A stretch of 64,000 bases of DNA from SAR202 cluster bacterium. Lineage in GTDB: Bacteria; Chloroflexota; Dehalococcoidia; Lucifugimonadales; GCA-2719675. The position numbers and the translations under genes were made by a program. Where the stretch lies: positions 62,001-126,000 of the forward strand of contig VFGW01000008.1 in NCBI GenBank assembly GCA_009392295.1, given 5' to 3'. The notes below the pieces were generated by a model that saw only the letters and a program-made list of their open reading frames with translations, was not told where the DNA came from and made no database searches. Shown in pieces: positions 5,608 to 62,370 of the stretch. Position 1 is the first letter of the stretch, and each line of letters begins with the position of its first letter.

Positions 5608-6222
5608 CTAATTTGAGTTTTGTTCTTCAGCGTTAGCTTCAGGCTGAATATTTTCTGCGTCAGTATTTGAGTTTTGTTCTTCAGCGTTAGCTTCAGGCTG
5701 AATATTTTCTGCGTCAGTATTTGAGTTTTGTTCTTCAGCGTTAGCTTCAGGCTGAGTATTTTCTGCGTCAGTATTTGAGTTTTGTTCTTCAGCGTTAGCT
5801 TCAGGCTGAGTATTTTCTGCGTCAGTATTTGAGTTTTGTTCTTCAGTGTTAGCTTCAGTAGAAGTACTTTCTTTAGATGAATTAATTTTTTTGTCATTGT
5901 TAGAAGTTTCAGAATTTTTATCATATGAATTATTTGACCTCATTGAAAGCCTAGCTGATCCATGGCTACCATCAGAAGGAAGTAGAGATAATATTCGTGC
6001 ACGTTTGATTGCTGTAGATAGTGCTCGTTGGTGTTTAGGGCAAACACCAGTTTTTCTAGAAGATTCAATTTTGTTTTGGTCAGAAATATATCTCCGAAGC
6101 GTGTTGATGTCTTTATAATCTATATAAGAAATTTTATTTAAACAAAAGTGACATACTTTTCTTTTTTGAAAGAATTTTGATTTACCTCTAAATGTTTTTT
6201 GAGTTTGGTCGAATGTTGTCAA
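5608..6222 (-). CDS. rpsR: 30S ribosomal protein bS18 with acidic repeat tail
   Basis: 204 residues against the usual 70-90. Residues 20-88 are S18: CHFC (C24, C27) and CPKH (C61, H64) form the zinc-binding variant of the family, followed by the rRNA-binding helix around KRARILSLLP. From about residue 89 the protein continues into a low-complexity tail rich in Asn, Ser, Glu and Gln, ending in nearly five copies of an 18-residue unit (EANAEEQNSNTDAENTQP). The tail lacks positive charge and is probably disordered. TTG start with AAAGGA upstream. It is the last gene of rpsF-ssb-rpsR, a conserved bacterial order. The tail is in frame with no break, so it is part of the predicted protein. Confidence 0.9.
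   Translation of the reverse strand: MTTFDQTQKTFRGKSKFFQKRKVCHFCLNKISYIDYKDINTLRRYISDQNKIESSRKTGVCPKHQRALSTAIKRARILSLLPSDGSHGSARLSMRSNNSYDKNSETSNNDKKINSSKESTSTEANTEEQNSNTDAENTQPEANAEEQNSNTDAENTQPEANAEEQNSNTDAENIQPEANAEEQNSNTDAENIQPEANAEEQNSN
5612..5866 (-). repeat. Tandem 54-bp coding repeat in rpsR
   Basis: Four almost identical 54-bp units start at 5612, 5666, 5720 and 5774; a fifth, diverged unit starts at 5828. The period equals 18 codons, so copy-number change would keep the frame. Units 1-2 and 3-4 differ from each other at one codon (Ile versus Thr). The near-identity of units suggests recent expansion by slippage or unequal recombination. Confidence 0.95.
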
Positions 6223-6697: not shown

Positions 6698-7003
6698 TTA
6701 GTTTATTTTAGTAATTAAGGATCTGATAATTGTTTCGTTAGCTTCAACAGTTTTATTTAATTGGACAATGGATGAAGTTAATATATCAAATTCAATCAAG
6801 ATGTAATGGCCTTCTTTAAATTTTTGGATAGGATAGCTAAGCTTTTTTAAACCCCAAATATCTGTTTTAACAATTGTTCCATTTAAGTTTTTTATTTCTG
6901 AAGAAACTTGACCCACAAGGTCGTTAATTTCTTTTTCAGTTATTTCTGGATTTAAAATAAAAACTATTTCATATTTTCGAATTTGTGTATTTGTAGAGAC
7001 CAC
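6698..7003 (-). CDS. rpsF: 30S ribosomal protein bS6
   Basis: 101 residues, normal length. The sequence starts with the S6 strand RKYEIVFILNPEITE and contains the conserved KKLSYPIQKFKEGHYILIEFD segment, which forms the beta strand contacting S18 in the 30S platform. The start is GTG, supported by GAGGT eight bases upstream. First gene of the rpsF-ssb-rpsR operon. Its promoter lies in a 49-bp sequence that is repeated upstream of the neighbouring foreign gene. Confidence 0.95.
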   Translation of the reverse strand: MVSTNTQIRKYEIVFILNPEITEKEINDLVGQVSSEIKNLNGTIVKTDIWGLKKLSYPIQKFKEGHYILIEFDILTSSIVQLNKTVEANETIIRSLITKIN

Positions 7004-7012
7004 GTTTTACCT

Positions 7013-7061
7013 CAATTTAACTACGATACGAGAGAATAATTATACCATGTGACTAATACAT
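7013..7061. repeat. 49-bp direct repeat, rpsF-proximal copy
   Basis: A perfect 49-bp match to 7786-7834 in the same orientation, 773 bp apart. Read on the minus strand it holds an extended -10 element (TG-G-TATAAT) and the 5' leader almost down to the Shine-Dalgarno sequence of rpsF. Flanking bases on both sides diverge at once, except for a short Shine-Dalgarno-like similarity. Confidence 0.97.
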
Positions 7062-7067
7062 CTACAA
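7039..7067 (-). promoter_or_regulatory. rpsF promoter
   Basis: On the minus strand TTGTAG (7067-7062), a 17-base spacer and TATAAT (7044-7039), preceded by TG one base upstream of the -10. Transcription would start near 7031, giving a leader of about 28 bases to the rpsF GTG. The -10 and spacer are within the 49-bp repeat; the -35 is just outside it. Confidence 0.7.
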
Positions 7068-7182
7068 TGATACTTTACTATTACTCAATTGTTAAACGTT
7101 TTTATTAGTCGTGCTTCTTCTAGATTGGTCAAAAATTTACAAATATTTTTAAATTGTCGGCATAAAGAATTTAATATGGTTT

Positions 7183-7773
7183 TTATGGTGTTTTGATCTC
7201 GAAATGCCCTAGTGATAGCTTGCCGCGTGGTTCTTGTGCGAACCCTACGAAAGAAAACCCATAGCTAGTGACAACTGATAGTACATCGTTAAGTGAGGTT
7301 ACATTAGAGGGGTGATTTTCCCAACTTCGATACCAGTGTTCCTGATCGTTGTGTAGTCTGATTATGTTCGGTTCAGAGGCCCACTCACCTTCAGAGATAT
7401 TCAATGGACTGCCATTCATATGCCAACGTACGCCGCCTTTATTAACCCAGAAGTAGCATTTTGCATCATTGAGTTGTAGATTGTCTCCTCGCAAGTATAC
7501 GGATATTTCAGCATTTCGTAAGTCCAGGGAATCTTCCCCGATCCAACTTCTATTTAGAATCAATGGGAGTATTGAGACCGGATTTTCTGGCGTGTCTGCA
7601 CTCCAGCGGCTTTCGTCAGTCCAGATGTATGGTCCGTCGTCAAGACCTCCTGTTCGTTCCCATGAAGTTAGGATAAATATATCTCTTCCTTTAGCTACAA
7701 TACTCCAGTGATAATCATAGCTACACCAACTTTCAGGCCCCTTCTCAAAATTATTTTTTAGTGACTCTTTCAA
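7183..7773 (-). CDS. Uncharacterised beta-rich protein, compositionally foreign
   Basis: 196 residues, family not recognised. It is rich in Trp, Ser, Asn and acidic residues with alternating hydrophobic strands, no signal peptide and no membrane segment; the central part (LDLRNAEISVYLRGDNLQLN through CYFWVN) suggests a beta-sandwich, perhaps carbohydrate-binding-like, but that is only an impression. GC is about 46% in lines I counted, against about 30% in carB next door, and codon use is different. TTG start with GGAGT nine bases upstream. The gene sits between carB and rpsF, and each side has one copy of a perfect 49-bp repeat containing the rpsF promoter, which implies insertion. No transposase or integrase is nearby. 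Confidence 0.75.
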   Translation of the reverse strand: MKESLKNNFEKGPESWCSYDYHWSIVAKGRDIFILTSWERTGGLDDGPYIWTDESRWSADTPENPVSILPLILNRSWIGEDSLDLRNAEISVYLRGDNLQLNDAKCYFWVNKGGVRWHMNGSPLNISEGEWASEPNIIRLHNDQEHWYRSWENHPSNVTSLNDVLSVVTSYGFSFVGFAQEPRGKLSLGHFEIKTP

Positions 7774-7785
7774 ATATAGTTACTC

Positions 7786-7834
7786 CAATTTAACTACGAT
7801 ACGAGAGAATAATTATACCATGTGACTAATACAT
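7786..7834. repeat. 49-bp direct repeat, carB-proximal copy
   Basis: Identical to 7013-7061. On the minus strand it supplies an extended -10 (TATAAT at 7817-7812) for the foreign gene starting at 7773. The -35 position just outside this copy is TAATAA (7840-7835), a poor match, whereas the rpsF copy has TTGTAG; so the two copies differ exactly from the -35 outward. Confidence 0.97.
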
Positions 7835-7870
7835 TTATTATGGATATTTTGTTGAATTATGGTTTGCATA

Positions 7871-10800
7871 CTAAATGGGTGCCTCAAAATACTTATGCAA
7901 AGGTAATACTTTGTATGGATTTTTTTGGAAAGTAATGTTTTTTGTAGCAATTATTGCGGTGTCTATTGAAGTAAAGCAAGGTATTCTTTTTTCAGCTGCA
8001 GCTCTACGAATTTTGAAACTATCTTCAAGTATCTTTTTTTCACCTGTGACTGTATTAATTACAGCTGTAATAGTATTGTCTAAAATTAAATCTAATATGT
8101 CGGGATATCCAGTTCCTATTCTATTTACTGTTTTGACATCAATTCCTATGTTCTTAATGAGTTTTGCCGTTCCTTTTGTGGCATAAAATGAGTATTTATG
8201 TGAATTTAATTCTTCAATCATGTCAACAATCTCATTTTTATGGTGGTCAGCTACGCTGATTAATATTTTCCCTTTTTCCGGGAGAGTCATATCTGATGAT
8301 ATTAGGGATTTAGTTATTGCATTTTCGAAGTTATAATCAATTCCCATTACTTCACCTGTTGATTTCATTTCTGGCCCAAGATGAGTTTCTACACCTATTA
8401 GCTTAGACATTGAAAATACAGGTGCTTTTACTCCTGTTAAATGCTTTATGCGATTTTTTGCTAGTCCATCTGAATATCCCTGGCTTTTCAAGGTGATTCC
8501 CAACATAGAGTCAATAGCAAGTTGAACCATTGGGATCCCTGTAACTTTTGAAATAAATGGAATAGTTCTGCTTGATCTAGGATTAACTTCAAGAACATAT
8601 ATATTTCGATTTTCTTTTGTTTTTGGGTTATTTTCGTTAATAACTACGAATTGAATGTTAATTAACCCTTTGAGGCCCAAAGATTTACCAATTATTTTTG
8701 TATATTCAATAATTGTTTCAATTTCATTTTTAGATAGAGAAATTTCAGGATATACTGCTATTGAATCACCGCTATGAACTCCAGCTCTTTCTATATGTTC
8801 CATAATCCCAGGAATCATTACTGTATCACCGTCACATACAGCATCGACTTCAATTTCGGTACCTTCGAAATATTTGTCTATTAGAACAGTATGTCCTTCA
8901 CCGGCATCTATAGCTATATCAGCAAATTTTTGTAATTCTTTTTCATTTTCAACTATTTCCATAGCTCTGCCACCTAATACATAACTTGGGCGCACTAGAA
9001 CCGGGTATCCAATTTGATTTGCAATTTCAATTGCTTTTTTTGTAGTTGTTACAGCTGCACCCGGAGGATTAGGAACATTGATTTTTTTGAGGAATTTTTC
9101 AAAAAGGTCTCGGTCGGAACAAACATTTATGATTTCTGCAGAGGTTCCAAGTATTGGTAGTTTATGCTTGTCCAATTTTTGTGAAATATTGATAGCTGTT
9201 TGTCCTCCAAATTGACATACAGTTGTAGGTAAAGTGGTGTTTTTATCAGAATTTTTGTTGAATGTTTCATTTTCAATGATGTCAAGAATGCTTTCCTCAT
9301 CTAGCGGTTCAAAATATAACCTGTCACTAGTGTCAAAATCGGTTGAAACTGTTTCTGGATTGGAATTTACAATAACGCTTTTGTAATTTGATTTTTGAAG
9401 AGCCCAAGCTGCATGTACAGAGCAATAGTCAAATTCGATTCCTTGGCCTATTCTGATAGGTCCACTGCCAATTACAATAGATTTTTTACCTTTTAAAGGA
9501 GAGGCTTCATTTTCATCTTCGAATGTACTGTAGAAGTAAGGCGTTTGAGCTTCAAATTCTGCAGCGCAAGTGTCGACCATTTTATATACTGGAATTATGC
9601 CAAATCCTTTTCGTTTTTTTCGGATTTCATCAGATGAAAAATTTGTTAATGTTGCAATAGTATTATCTGAAAACCCAAGTTTTTTAGCATCGAGTAATAT
9701 TTCTTTAGATAGATTGGTGATTTTCCAGCCTTTAAATTGCGATAGTTTTTTTTCCATTTCAACCATTTTTGAAAATGATCGAGTAAACCATGGATCAATC
9801 ATAGTTTTTTTTGCTAAATCGTTAGGTGTTATTCCTTTTCTTAATGCTGAGAAAAGGGCCCATAGTCTATCATCGTTTGGGCTTAGCTGAGTATCTAATT
9901 GTTGAGTCTTCAAGTGATCTTTTTCCCAAAGATAGGATCTTCCAGATATTTCTAATGAACGTATAGCTTTTTGAAAGGCTGATTCAAAAGATCTTCCGAT
10001 AGCCATAACTTCTCCTGTAGCTTTCATTTGAGTTCCCAGAGTTTTATCGCCCAAAGGAAATTTGTCAAATGGCCATCTAGGAATTTTCACAACACAGTAA
10101 TCGAGAGCAGGCTCAAAAGAAGCAACGGTTTTTTTTGTTATGGCATTGTAAATTTCAGGAAGTGTTTTCCCGATAGCGATTTTTGATGCAACTCTAGCAA
10201 TAGGATATCCAGTTGCCTTGCTGGCTAATGCTGAGCTTCTACTTACTCTAGGGTTAACCTCAATCACATAGTAAGGACTTGTAGATGTATTTTCTTTGGT
10301 ATATGAAATGTTGCTTGGAGTGATTGCAAATTGAATATTACAACCACCTTCTATCCCTAAAGCTCTTATAATTTTCAGACTTGCTGTTCTAAGCATTTGG
10401 TAATCTTTATCAGTCAATGTTTGACTTGGGGCCACTACAATACTATCTCCAGTATGAACACCCATTGCATCAATATTTTCCATGTTGCAAATTGTGATGC
10501 AATTATCACTAGCATCGCGCATAACTTCGTATTCAATTTCTTTCCAACCTTCTAATGATTGTTCAATTAAAACTTGATTAATAGGACTAGATGAAATTCC
10601 GCTAGAAACAATTTGTTTATATTCGTCAAAAGTATTGGCAATGCCGCCACCCGTTCCTCCTAGGGTATATGCAGGTCGGATTACTAAAGGAAGTTGCATT
10701 TTATCTAAGTGTGACATTGCTTCTTCAATTGAATTTGCAGTAAGGCTAGGTATTGTAGGTTCGTTGATACTAGATAAAAGATTATTAAATTTTTCTCTAT

Positions 10801-11176
10801 CTTCAGCAGTTTCAATTGACTCTAAAGGAGTGCCTAATAAATCAACGTTGAATTTTTCAAGTATTCCTGAGTGTGAAAGCTCTACTGCTAAATTTAATCC
10901 TGTTTGTCCACCTAAAGTTGCGAGTAGCCCCTCTGGCTTTTCTGCCTCTATAATTCTCGACAAAACATTTACAGTTAATGGTTCAATATATACGGCATCA
11001 GCAATATTTTGATCTGTCATAATTGTTGCTGGATTAGAATTAACTAGTATTGTATAGATACCTTCTTCTTTTAACGAAGCACATGCTTGAGTTCCAGCAT
11101 AATCGAACTCTGCAGCTTGGCCTATAATGATTGGACCAGAACCAATTACTAAGATTTTTGAAATATTTTTTGTCAT
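7871..11176 (-). CDS. carB: Carbamoyl-phosphate synthase large subunit
   Basis: 1101 residues, slightly longer than the E. coli enzyme (1073). Two homologous ATP-grasp halves are visible: the first opens with KILVIGSGPIIIGQAAEFDYAG and the second, after about residue 570, with KSIVIGSGPIRIGQGIEFDY; both contain the glycine-rich ATP-binding RPAYTLGGTGGG / RPSYVLGGRAM segments. The C-terminal part is the MGS-like allosteric domain. With CarA it makes carbamoyl phosphate from glutamine, bicarbonate and two ATP for pyrimidine and arginine synthesis. Last gene of the pyrR-pyrB-pyrC-carA-HAD-carB operon, 5 bases after the HAD gene. ATG start. Confidence 0.97.
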   Translation of the reverse strand: MTKNISKILVIGSGPIIIGQAAEFDYAGTQACASLKEEGIYTILVNSNPATIMTDQNIADAVYIEPLTVNVLSRIIEAEKPEGLLATLGGQTGLNLAVELSHSGILEKFNVDLLGTPLESIETAEDREKFNNLLSSINEPTIPSLTANSIEEAMSHLDKMQLPLVIRPAYTLGGTGGGIANTFDEYKQIVSSGISSSPINQVLIEQSLEGWKEIEYEVMRDASDNCITICNMENIDAMGVHTGDSIVVAPSQTLTDKDYQMLRTASLKIIRALGIEGGCNIQFAITPSNISYTKENTSTSPYYVIEVNPRVSRSSALASKATGYPIARVASKIAIGKTLPEIYNAITKKTVASFEPALDYCVVKIPRWPFDKFPLGDKTLGTQMKATGEVMAIGRSFESAFQKAIRSLEISGRSYLWEKDHLKTQQLDTQLSPNDDRLWALFSALRKGITPNDLAKKTMIDPWFTRSFSKMVEMEKKLSQFKGWKITNLSKEILLDAKKLGFSDNTIATLTNFSSDEIRKKRKGFGIIPVYKMVDTCAAEFEAQTPYFYSTFEDENEASPLKGKKSIVIGSGPIRIGQGIEFDYCSVHAAWALQKSNYKSVIVNSNPETVSTDFDTSDRLYFEPLDEESILDIIENETFNKNSDKNTTLPTTVCQFGGQTAINISQKLDKHKLPILGTSAEIINVCSDRDLFEKFLKKINVPNPPGAAVTTTKKAIEIANQIGYPVLVRPSYVLGGRAMEIVENEKELQKFADIAIDAGEGHTVLIDKYFEGTEIEVDAVCDGDTVMIPGIMEHIERAGVHSGDSIAVYPEISLSKNEIETIIEYTKIIGKSLGLKGLINIQFVVINENNPKTKENRNIYVLEVNPRSSRTIPFISKVTGIPMVQLAIDSMLGITLKSQGYSDGLAKNRIKHLTGVKAPVFSMSKLIGVETHLGPEMKSTGEVMGIDYNFENAITKSLISSDMTLPEKGKILISVADHHKNEIVDMIEELNSHKYSFYATKGTAKLIKNIGIDVKTVNRIGTGYPDILDLILDNTITAVINTVTGEKKILEDSFKIRRAAAEKRIPCFTSIDTAIIATKNITFQKNPYKVLPLHKYFEAPI

Positions 11177-61233: not shown

Positions 61234-62370
61234 ATGATATTAGGTAGATCTTTATTATTTATGCGTTATTTTATTTTTCTCATTTTTTCTTTTTTCCTTA
61301 TTTTTTCTACTAATAATGTGAGTGCAAGTACAGCTCTACCTATGCAATTTTCTGGATCTGCTTCTTTAGATGATGGTACTTCTGTTCCTGATGGATATAA
61401 AGTTGTAGCTAAAGTTCTTGATTTCCAGGTATATCCTTCTACTGTTCGTAATGGTCAATATTGGGCTTTAACTGTTGGTCCTTCTGGTGATTCTTATGTA
61501 GGTGCTACAATTAATTTCTATTTATGCTATATAGGTTCTGATTGTACTGAATCTGGAAATGTTCTTGCTAATGAATCTACTCTTTTTCTTGCATCTTCTG
61601 GATTGACAGTTAAAAATGATTTTAATTTAACTTTTCCATCTTTACCCGTTCCTCCACCTACTCCAACTCCTATAGTGACTGAGCTTAAAGCATCTACCTA
61701 TTCTGGGTTCATAATTGTTGCCGATAGTGTTTTGCCTTCTGGATCTCAGTTAATTGCTAAAATTGGTGATTATGTCTCTGAACCCGCTAAAATAGCGGCC
61801 CCTTTTTATATAGATTTGATAGTTGACCCTAAAGATCTTTCTTTTGACGGTTCTACGGTTGAATTTTATTTAAATGGTTACAAAGCTCGCACAACTACCT
61901 CTTTCGTTTCTGGACAACAAAAATCCCTTGATATAATTGTTGTAGGTTATCCTCAACCTACTCCAACACCTGTACCACCTACAGCAACACCTGTACCACC
62001 TACAGCAACACCTGTACCACCTACAGCAACACCTATACCACCTACAGCAACACCTGTACCACCTACAGCAACACCTGTGCCACCTACAGCAACACCTGTA
62101 CCACCTACAGCAACACCTGAGCCTACACCTACTCCAATACCTATTTCTAAAAAGATTTCTAATAAACTTTCTGAGATAGTTCCGACAGTAACACCTGTAC
62201 CGCCTACAGCCACACCTGTACCGCCTACACCAACTCCTACTGAATCTGATGGAGGTGGTTGTTTTGCTGCTTCTAATACATCCTTAGAGACCGGCATGGT
62301 TAATATGATGTTTATGTTATTACCAGTTGGAATTTTAGTTGGATTACGTAGAAAACATCAAAATAAATAA
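61234..62370 (+). CDS. Secreted Pro/Thr-repeat protein with cysteine-containing C-terminal sorting-like signal
   Basis: 378 residues. A long hydrophobic signal peptide (about residues 1-30, [15 protein letters not shown]) is followed by two similar beta domains (residues about 35-135 and 150-235, both with an A/S-x-Y/S-x-G motif and a strand pattern such as GATINFYL / GSTVEFYL), a Pro/Thr repeat stalk, a short Lys-rich interruption ([11 protein letters not shown]), more VPPTATP units, then GGGCFAAS (Cys343), a hydrophobic helix ([17 protein letters not shown]) and a basic RRKHQNK end. This last part has the layout of CTERM-type sorting signals with a Cys. ATG start with AGGAGG upstream. Probably a stalked cell-surface protein, next to the S-layer-like protein. 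Confidence 0.82.
61969..62115 (+). repeat. Seven tandem 21-bp units encoding VPPTATP
   Basis: Seven in-frame 21-bp copies (one Ile for Val, one synonymous change) between 61969 and 62115, with two more diverged copies near 62190-62235. Pro/Thr repeats of this kind are frequent in Chloroflexota secreted proteins and probably act as a rigid wall-spanning stalk. Confidence 0.95.

Follow-up and report, generated by a model that had tools for sequence, protein, structure and literature searches.

In a 64-kb window from a SAR202 cluster bacterium (the window being the whole stretch of DNA that we analysed), a foreign coding sequence likely entered the spacer between carB and rpsF, and a local duplication likely copied the rpsF promoter to its upstream side. 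The low-GC, 1.45-Mb genome from which the window derives belongs to the SAR202 order of Chloroflexota and agrees with the account of streamlined SAR202 in PMC11994032. Observations that bear directly on this reading are the repeated promoter, its uniqueness, the empty junction in a sister genome and the resident flank at the rpsF-proximal copy, together with the composition of the gene, the patchy distribution of its family and the occurrence of an extended -10 at rpsF throughout the order. The order of the steps, the expression of the gene and its ligand are inferences.

On the minus strand, the locus reads carB, 36 nt, the distal copy of a 49-bp promoter/leader, 12 nt that complete a Shine-Dalgarno, a gene of 196 codons, 121 nt, the proximal copy and rpsF (Table 1). 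The two copies are identical at 49 of 49 nt, and each contains an extended -10, confirming that both genes are preceded by the same promoter, as the initial annotation had reported. The chance expectation for exact 49-mers in the 64-kb window is ~2e-18. A search of the 1.45-Mb genome that allowed up to 3 mismatches found no third copy, indicating that the 49-mer is not a common repeat. The copies had also been described as diverging exactly at the -35 boundary. This is correct for perfect identity, which ends directly 3' of the -35 hexamer (proximal TTGTAG, distal TAATAA), but the edge is not perfectly sharp, with 63 nt still matching at 92% and the next 15 nt weakly similar (p ~0.007). The surrounding ORFs (carB, rpsF, ssb, rpsR and nuo-type genes) contained no visible transposase or integrase, in agreement with the claim that a transposase is absent, and no inverted arms were found at the ends of the insert. 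Elsewhere in the window, rpsR (5608-6222, minus strand) encodes an S18 whose long, acidic C-terminal tail consists of 18-aa tandem repeats (54-bp unit), and in the sister rpsR (L024 4273-4758) the tail at this position is built of other repeats; a 21-nt tandem repeat array lies at 61964-62110.

Table 1. Features of the carB-rpsF region, in coordinates of the window.
Feature	Position	Strand	Remark
rpsF (ribosomal protein S6)	6698..7003	-	
49-bp promoter/leader, proximal (resident) copy, serves rpsF	7013..7061	-	Aligns with the leader of sister genome G001, which has one copy
Elements of the proximal copy	-10 at 7039-7044; -35 TTGTAG at 7062-7067	-	
Resident carB-rpsF spacer	7062..7119	-	16 nt beside the promoter identical to G001; weak alignment beyond, as far as the carB stop
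Segment 3' of the gene stop, ~63 nt	7120..7182	-	Unmatched at G001, at G046 and at the paralogue in the same genome
Acquired gene, 196 aa, TTG start	7183..7773	-	Beta-sandwich family; CBM / laminin-IV-like predicted fold
Junction: end of the Shine-Dalgarno (GGAG) plus the spacer before the TTG start	7774..7785	-	Putative novel joint of copied leader to gene (sequence and inference)
49-bp rpsF promoter/leader, distal copy, before the acquired gene	7786..7834	-	-10 TATAAT at 7812-7817, extended TGG
36-nt segment, carB stop to distal copy	7835..7870	-	Not significantly similar to the sister spacer
carB (carbamoyl-phosphate synthase large chain)	7871..11176	-	

The polarity of the event was read from one sister genome of the same genus (G001); in none of the 28 other members of the order with an examined rpsF locus were carB and rpsF found side by side. 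In G001, carB adjoins rpsF across a 56-nt spacer that holds a single copy of the leader and no gene. The leader is strongly conserved, differing from that of the window by 1 substitution and 1 inserted base in 49. Directly upstream of it stands TAAAGTATCATTGTAG, common to G001 and the proximal copy only, and the 16 nt upstream of the proximal copy, -35 box included, are identical in G001; the distal copy lacks these. Further upstream, as far as the carB stop, the rest of the G001 spacer showed a weak alignment to what precedes the proximal copy (anchored p = 0.036), whereas the 36 nt before the distal copy gave no significant match to that spacer (p 0.42-0.47). Since the G001 flank matches the proximal side only, the resident promoter is the proximal copy, and the distal one is new. 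A weak resemblance to the resident flank does exist in the 15 nt that adjoin the distal copy upstream (p ~0.005-0.007); it would be consistent with a longer duplication that has decayed in its upstream part.

A homologue of the gene, 85% identical, is found in G001 at another locus, 12 nt after the stop codon of a Bax1-like gene. Only the coding sequences of the two align, with homology ending at their ends, and the flanks of the insert matched none of the gene flanks in G001, in G046 or at the paralogue in the same genome. A search of the window's own genome for the site equivalent to the G001 gene position did not locate it, giving no Bax1-like match and no SDR match above 42%. The G001 homologue has ATT at the position of the window's TTG start, and from the upstream stop to the family start it contains no ATG, GTG or TTG (L025 5090-5105); it would have to use ATT as a start or go untranslated. 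Identity at fourfold sites between the window and G001 was 0.70 for the gene and 0.46 for carB (p = 1.6e-4). The gene is thus more similar than core genes, indicating that its copies separated later than the genomes did; the window and G001 may have acquired it separately from a common pool, or the lineages may have exchanged it. Both genomes also carry an older, low-GC paralogue with shared neighbours (L008, L010). Fourfold-site identity of this paralogue is 92% between the two species (~50% in core genes), hinting at a recent exchange of that segment.

The initial annotation had called the gene foreign, and this view gains support from its composition, its patchy family and the empty sister junction, although its GC content is 43.3%, and not the ~46% given there, in a genome of 33% GC. 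Its GC3 of 0.39 was the highest among the 282 ORFs of a 337-kb sample of the genome (mean 0.20, sd 0.033, z = 5.9). The second-strongest outlier in this sample was an ORF of 144 aa (L118 19092-19526, minus strand; GC3 0.32, z 3.6) with zinc-finger-like cysteines. The GC3 of the gene (0.39/0.43) is intermediate between that of the host (0.20) and that of the nearest other homologue (0.75, in G046). Homologues were present in 5 of 59 genomes of the order, the window's own included, in a first search and in 5 of 250 in a wider one; the family comprises 49 loci in the genome collection, distributed patchily over several phyla. Within the tree, the window and G001 genes group together (support 100/97), and the G046 gene joins next (99/97). 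Atypical composition, patchy distribution and absence from the orthologous site all point to horizontal acquisition of the gene. Scans of viral contigs with the protein and with a 34-nt leader core gave no match, so no phage source was seen, and no genes were shared among the neighbourhoods of family members. The high-GC genome G046 carries a second member of the family (L055 1607-2182), whose GC content is 42% in a context of 57%; low-GC copies of the family may be moving into high-GC hosts as well.

An extended -10 was found upstream of 21 of the 26 readable rpsF loci of the order (TGnTATAAT in 19, TGnTATACT in 2), at a distance of 46-93 nt from the matched start, compared to 28 of 1160 random windows of the same size. 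The copied 49-bp block therefore contains a conserved promoter core, and on sequence grounds the promoter belongs to rpsF. An extended -10 and a Shine-Dalgarno are likewise present before the acquired gene, which is probably expressed from this promoter as rpsF would be. The distal copy leaves out the -35 hexamer, which the promoter probably does not need. A generic sigma-70 scan did not detect the extended -10 promoter because the scan demands a good -35, and an Rfam search of the leader returned no RNA element.

Searches of Pfam, NCBIfam, PHROGs and PDB sequence profiles assigned the 196-aa protein to no family; sybody matches in the PDB profile search were treated as chance. A structure model built from a 41-sequence alignment reached a mean pLDDT of 93, an earlier model from 8 sequences having been poor. 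Its nearest solved folds were CBM11, CBM22, CBM30, laminin IV and a CIA30-type complex I assembly factor, matched with Z ~10-12 over ~140-160 residues at 6-16% sequence identity. The profile and structure searches proposed in the initial annotation thus yielded no described family and a predicted CBM / laminin-IV-like fold. The product is predicted to be a small beta-sandwich resembling the modules of CBM11, CBM22 and CBM30 and the laminin IV / CIA30-like domains; unlike those carbohydrate-binding modules, it stands alone, with no catalytic domain and no Pfam or NCBIfam family. We found no description of the locus or of the protein family in the literature, and we regard the family as an undescribed one of beta-sandwich proteins. 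The predicted fold and conserved aromatic residues lead us to guess at a role in carbohydrate binding. By eye, the N-terminus is lipobox-like in members from Acidobacteriota, and this feature is absent from the window protein.

As to how the locus arose, an exact copy of a neighbour's promoter is joined to another gene and the donor keeps its own, the arrangement that capture by local duplication leaves behind. A foreign, nearly promoterless coding sequence with little or no flanking DNA would have entered the carB-rpsF spacer, upstream of the rpsF promoter, after the split from the sister species. A tandem duplication of the gene-spacer-promoter segment would then have fused the promoter to the gene at the Shine-Dalgarno, and the promoterless spare copy of the gene would later have been deleted. 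The new 49-bp promoter/leader copy would end inside the Shine-Dalgarno, with rpsF retaining the original promoter and its -35 box. Alternatively, a template switch during replication would give the identical product in one step; duplication followed by deletion is the simplest route, and sequence cannot separate the routes. The rearrangement is probably an ordinary natural promoter capture.

The exact direct repeats that flank the insert, together with the weak similarity that runs 15 nt past the distal copy, could also reflect insertion into the leader itself, either with a target-site duplication of 49 bp or more or by single-crossover integration of a circle bearing a similar leader. We regard this as unlikely. 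After a target-site duplication or a single crossover, the resident flank should precede the distal copy, and the reverse was found, which argues against both: the upstream sequence and -35 box lie inside the insert, beside the proximal copy, and not outside both copies as after a target-site duplication. The same evidence speaks against the initial suggestion of recombination in a shared leader. Moreover, identities fall from 49/49 to ~11/16 across the boundary (p = 5e-4), and no integrase or transposase was visible nearby. Ancestral presence of the gene with two promoters, followed by its deletion in G001, whose copy would sit elsewhere for another reason, would account for the 85% identical gene in both genomes. 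We hold this to be quite improbable, as the fourfold divergence of the gene is lower than that of core genes, the compact G001 spacer aligns with the resident flank only, and the two window promoter copies are identical to each other while both differ from G001 at 2 positions. The genome is a MAG assembled in 25 contigs, in which misassembly at a repeat is possible and repeats near k-mer length favour misjoins; nevertheless, a chimera formed through the 49-mer is very unlikely, because the 49-mer occurs at these two places only and a misjoin requires a third context, the proximal junction is validated by G001, and the site is internal to a 207-kb contig.

The initial annotation had further raised the idea that a capture mechanism uses ribosomal promoters as landing sites. 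The segment common to the two species coincides almost completely with the coding sequence, which in each is joined to a resident expression context, as a dedicated lineage system that places foreign coding sequences beside copied ribosomal promoters would produce. However, 337 kb (23%) of the genome yielded no other promoter duplication; all that the repeat survey turned up there were tandem repeats, repeats at short spacing and a single 27-nt repeat in tandem amidohydrolase paralogues. With no second case in that sample, a dedicated mechanism is unsupported; the G001 copy is not beside a ribosomal promoter and has neither a promoter copy nor a canonical start codon, and no recombinase was seen. 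Such a system is extremely improbable. A broader process in streamlined SAR202 that moves bare coding sequences between genomes, each joined to a resident expression signal (here the copied rpsF promoter), would be a long shot. Separately, an AT-rich, 51-nt exact direct repeat with copies 180 nt apart was observed between two genes (L124 4251 and 4431).

Local duplication, the reading we prefer, has a counterpart in the tandem duplication of Cit+ E. coli (Blount et al. 2012), a promoter capture by chromosomal rearrangement, as cited in PMC5526668. In that case, as proposed here, a duplication sets a copy of a neighbour's promoter before a gene that lacks a suitable one and so brings about its expression, and the promoter's own gene keeps a copy. 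Unlike Cit+, the SAR202 locus involves a foreign gene, its repeat is limited to 49 bp, the proposed spare gene copy is gone, and its history is reconstructed from one sister genome instead of observed. For the entry of the gene, a parallel is found in illegitimate recombination.

In homology-facilitated or short-patch illegitimate recombination, short foreign segments integrate with little homology and may cause small duplications. The SAR202 locus resembles such illegitimate or microhomology-mediated integration in its short foreign segment, little homology and small duplication; it differs in that no clear microhomology is provable at the joints.

Taken together, promoter capture is a known kind of mechanism, and the locus would provide a natural snapshot of an acquired gene becoming expressed in an uncultured, streamlined marine lineage, with the promoter copied while its donor gene, rpsF, stays undamaged. 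It also brings out an undescribed, patchily spread family of beta-sandwich proteins.
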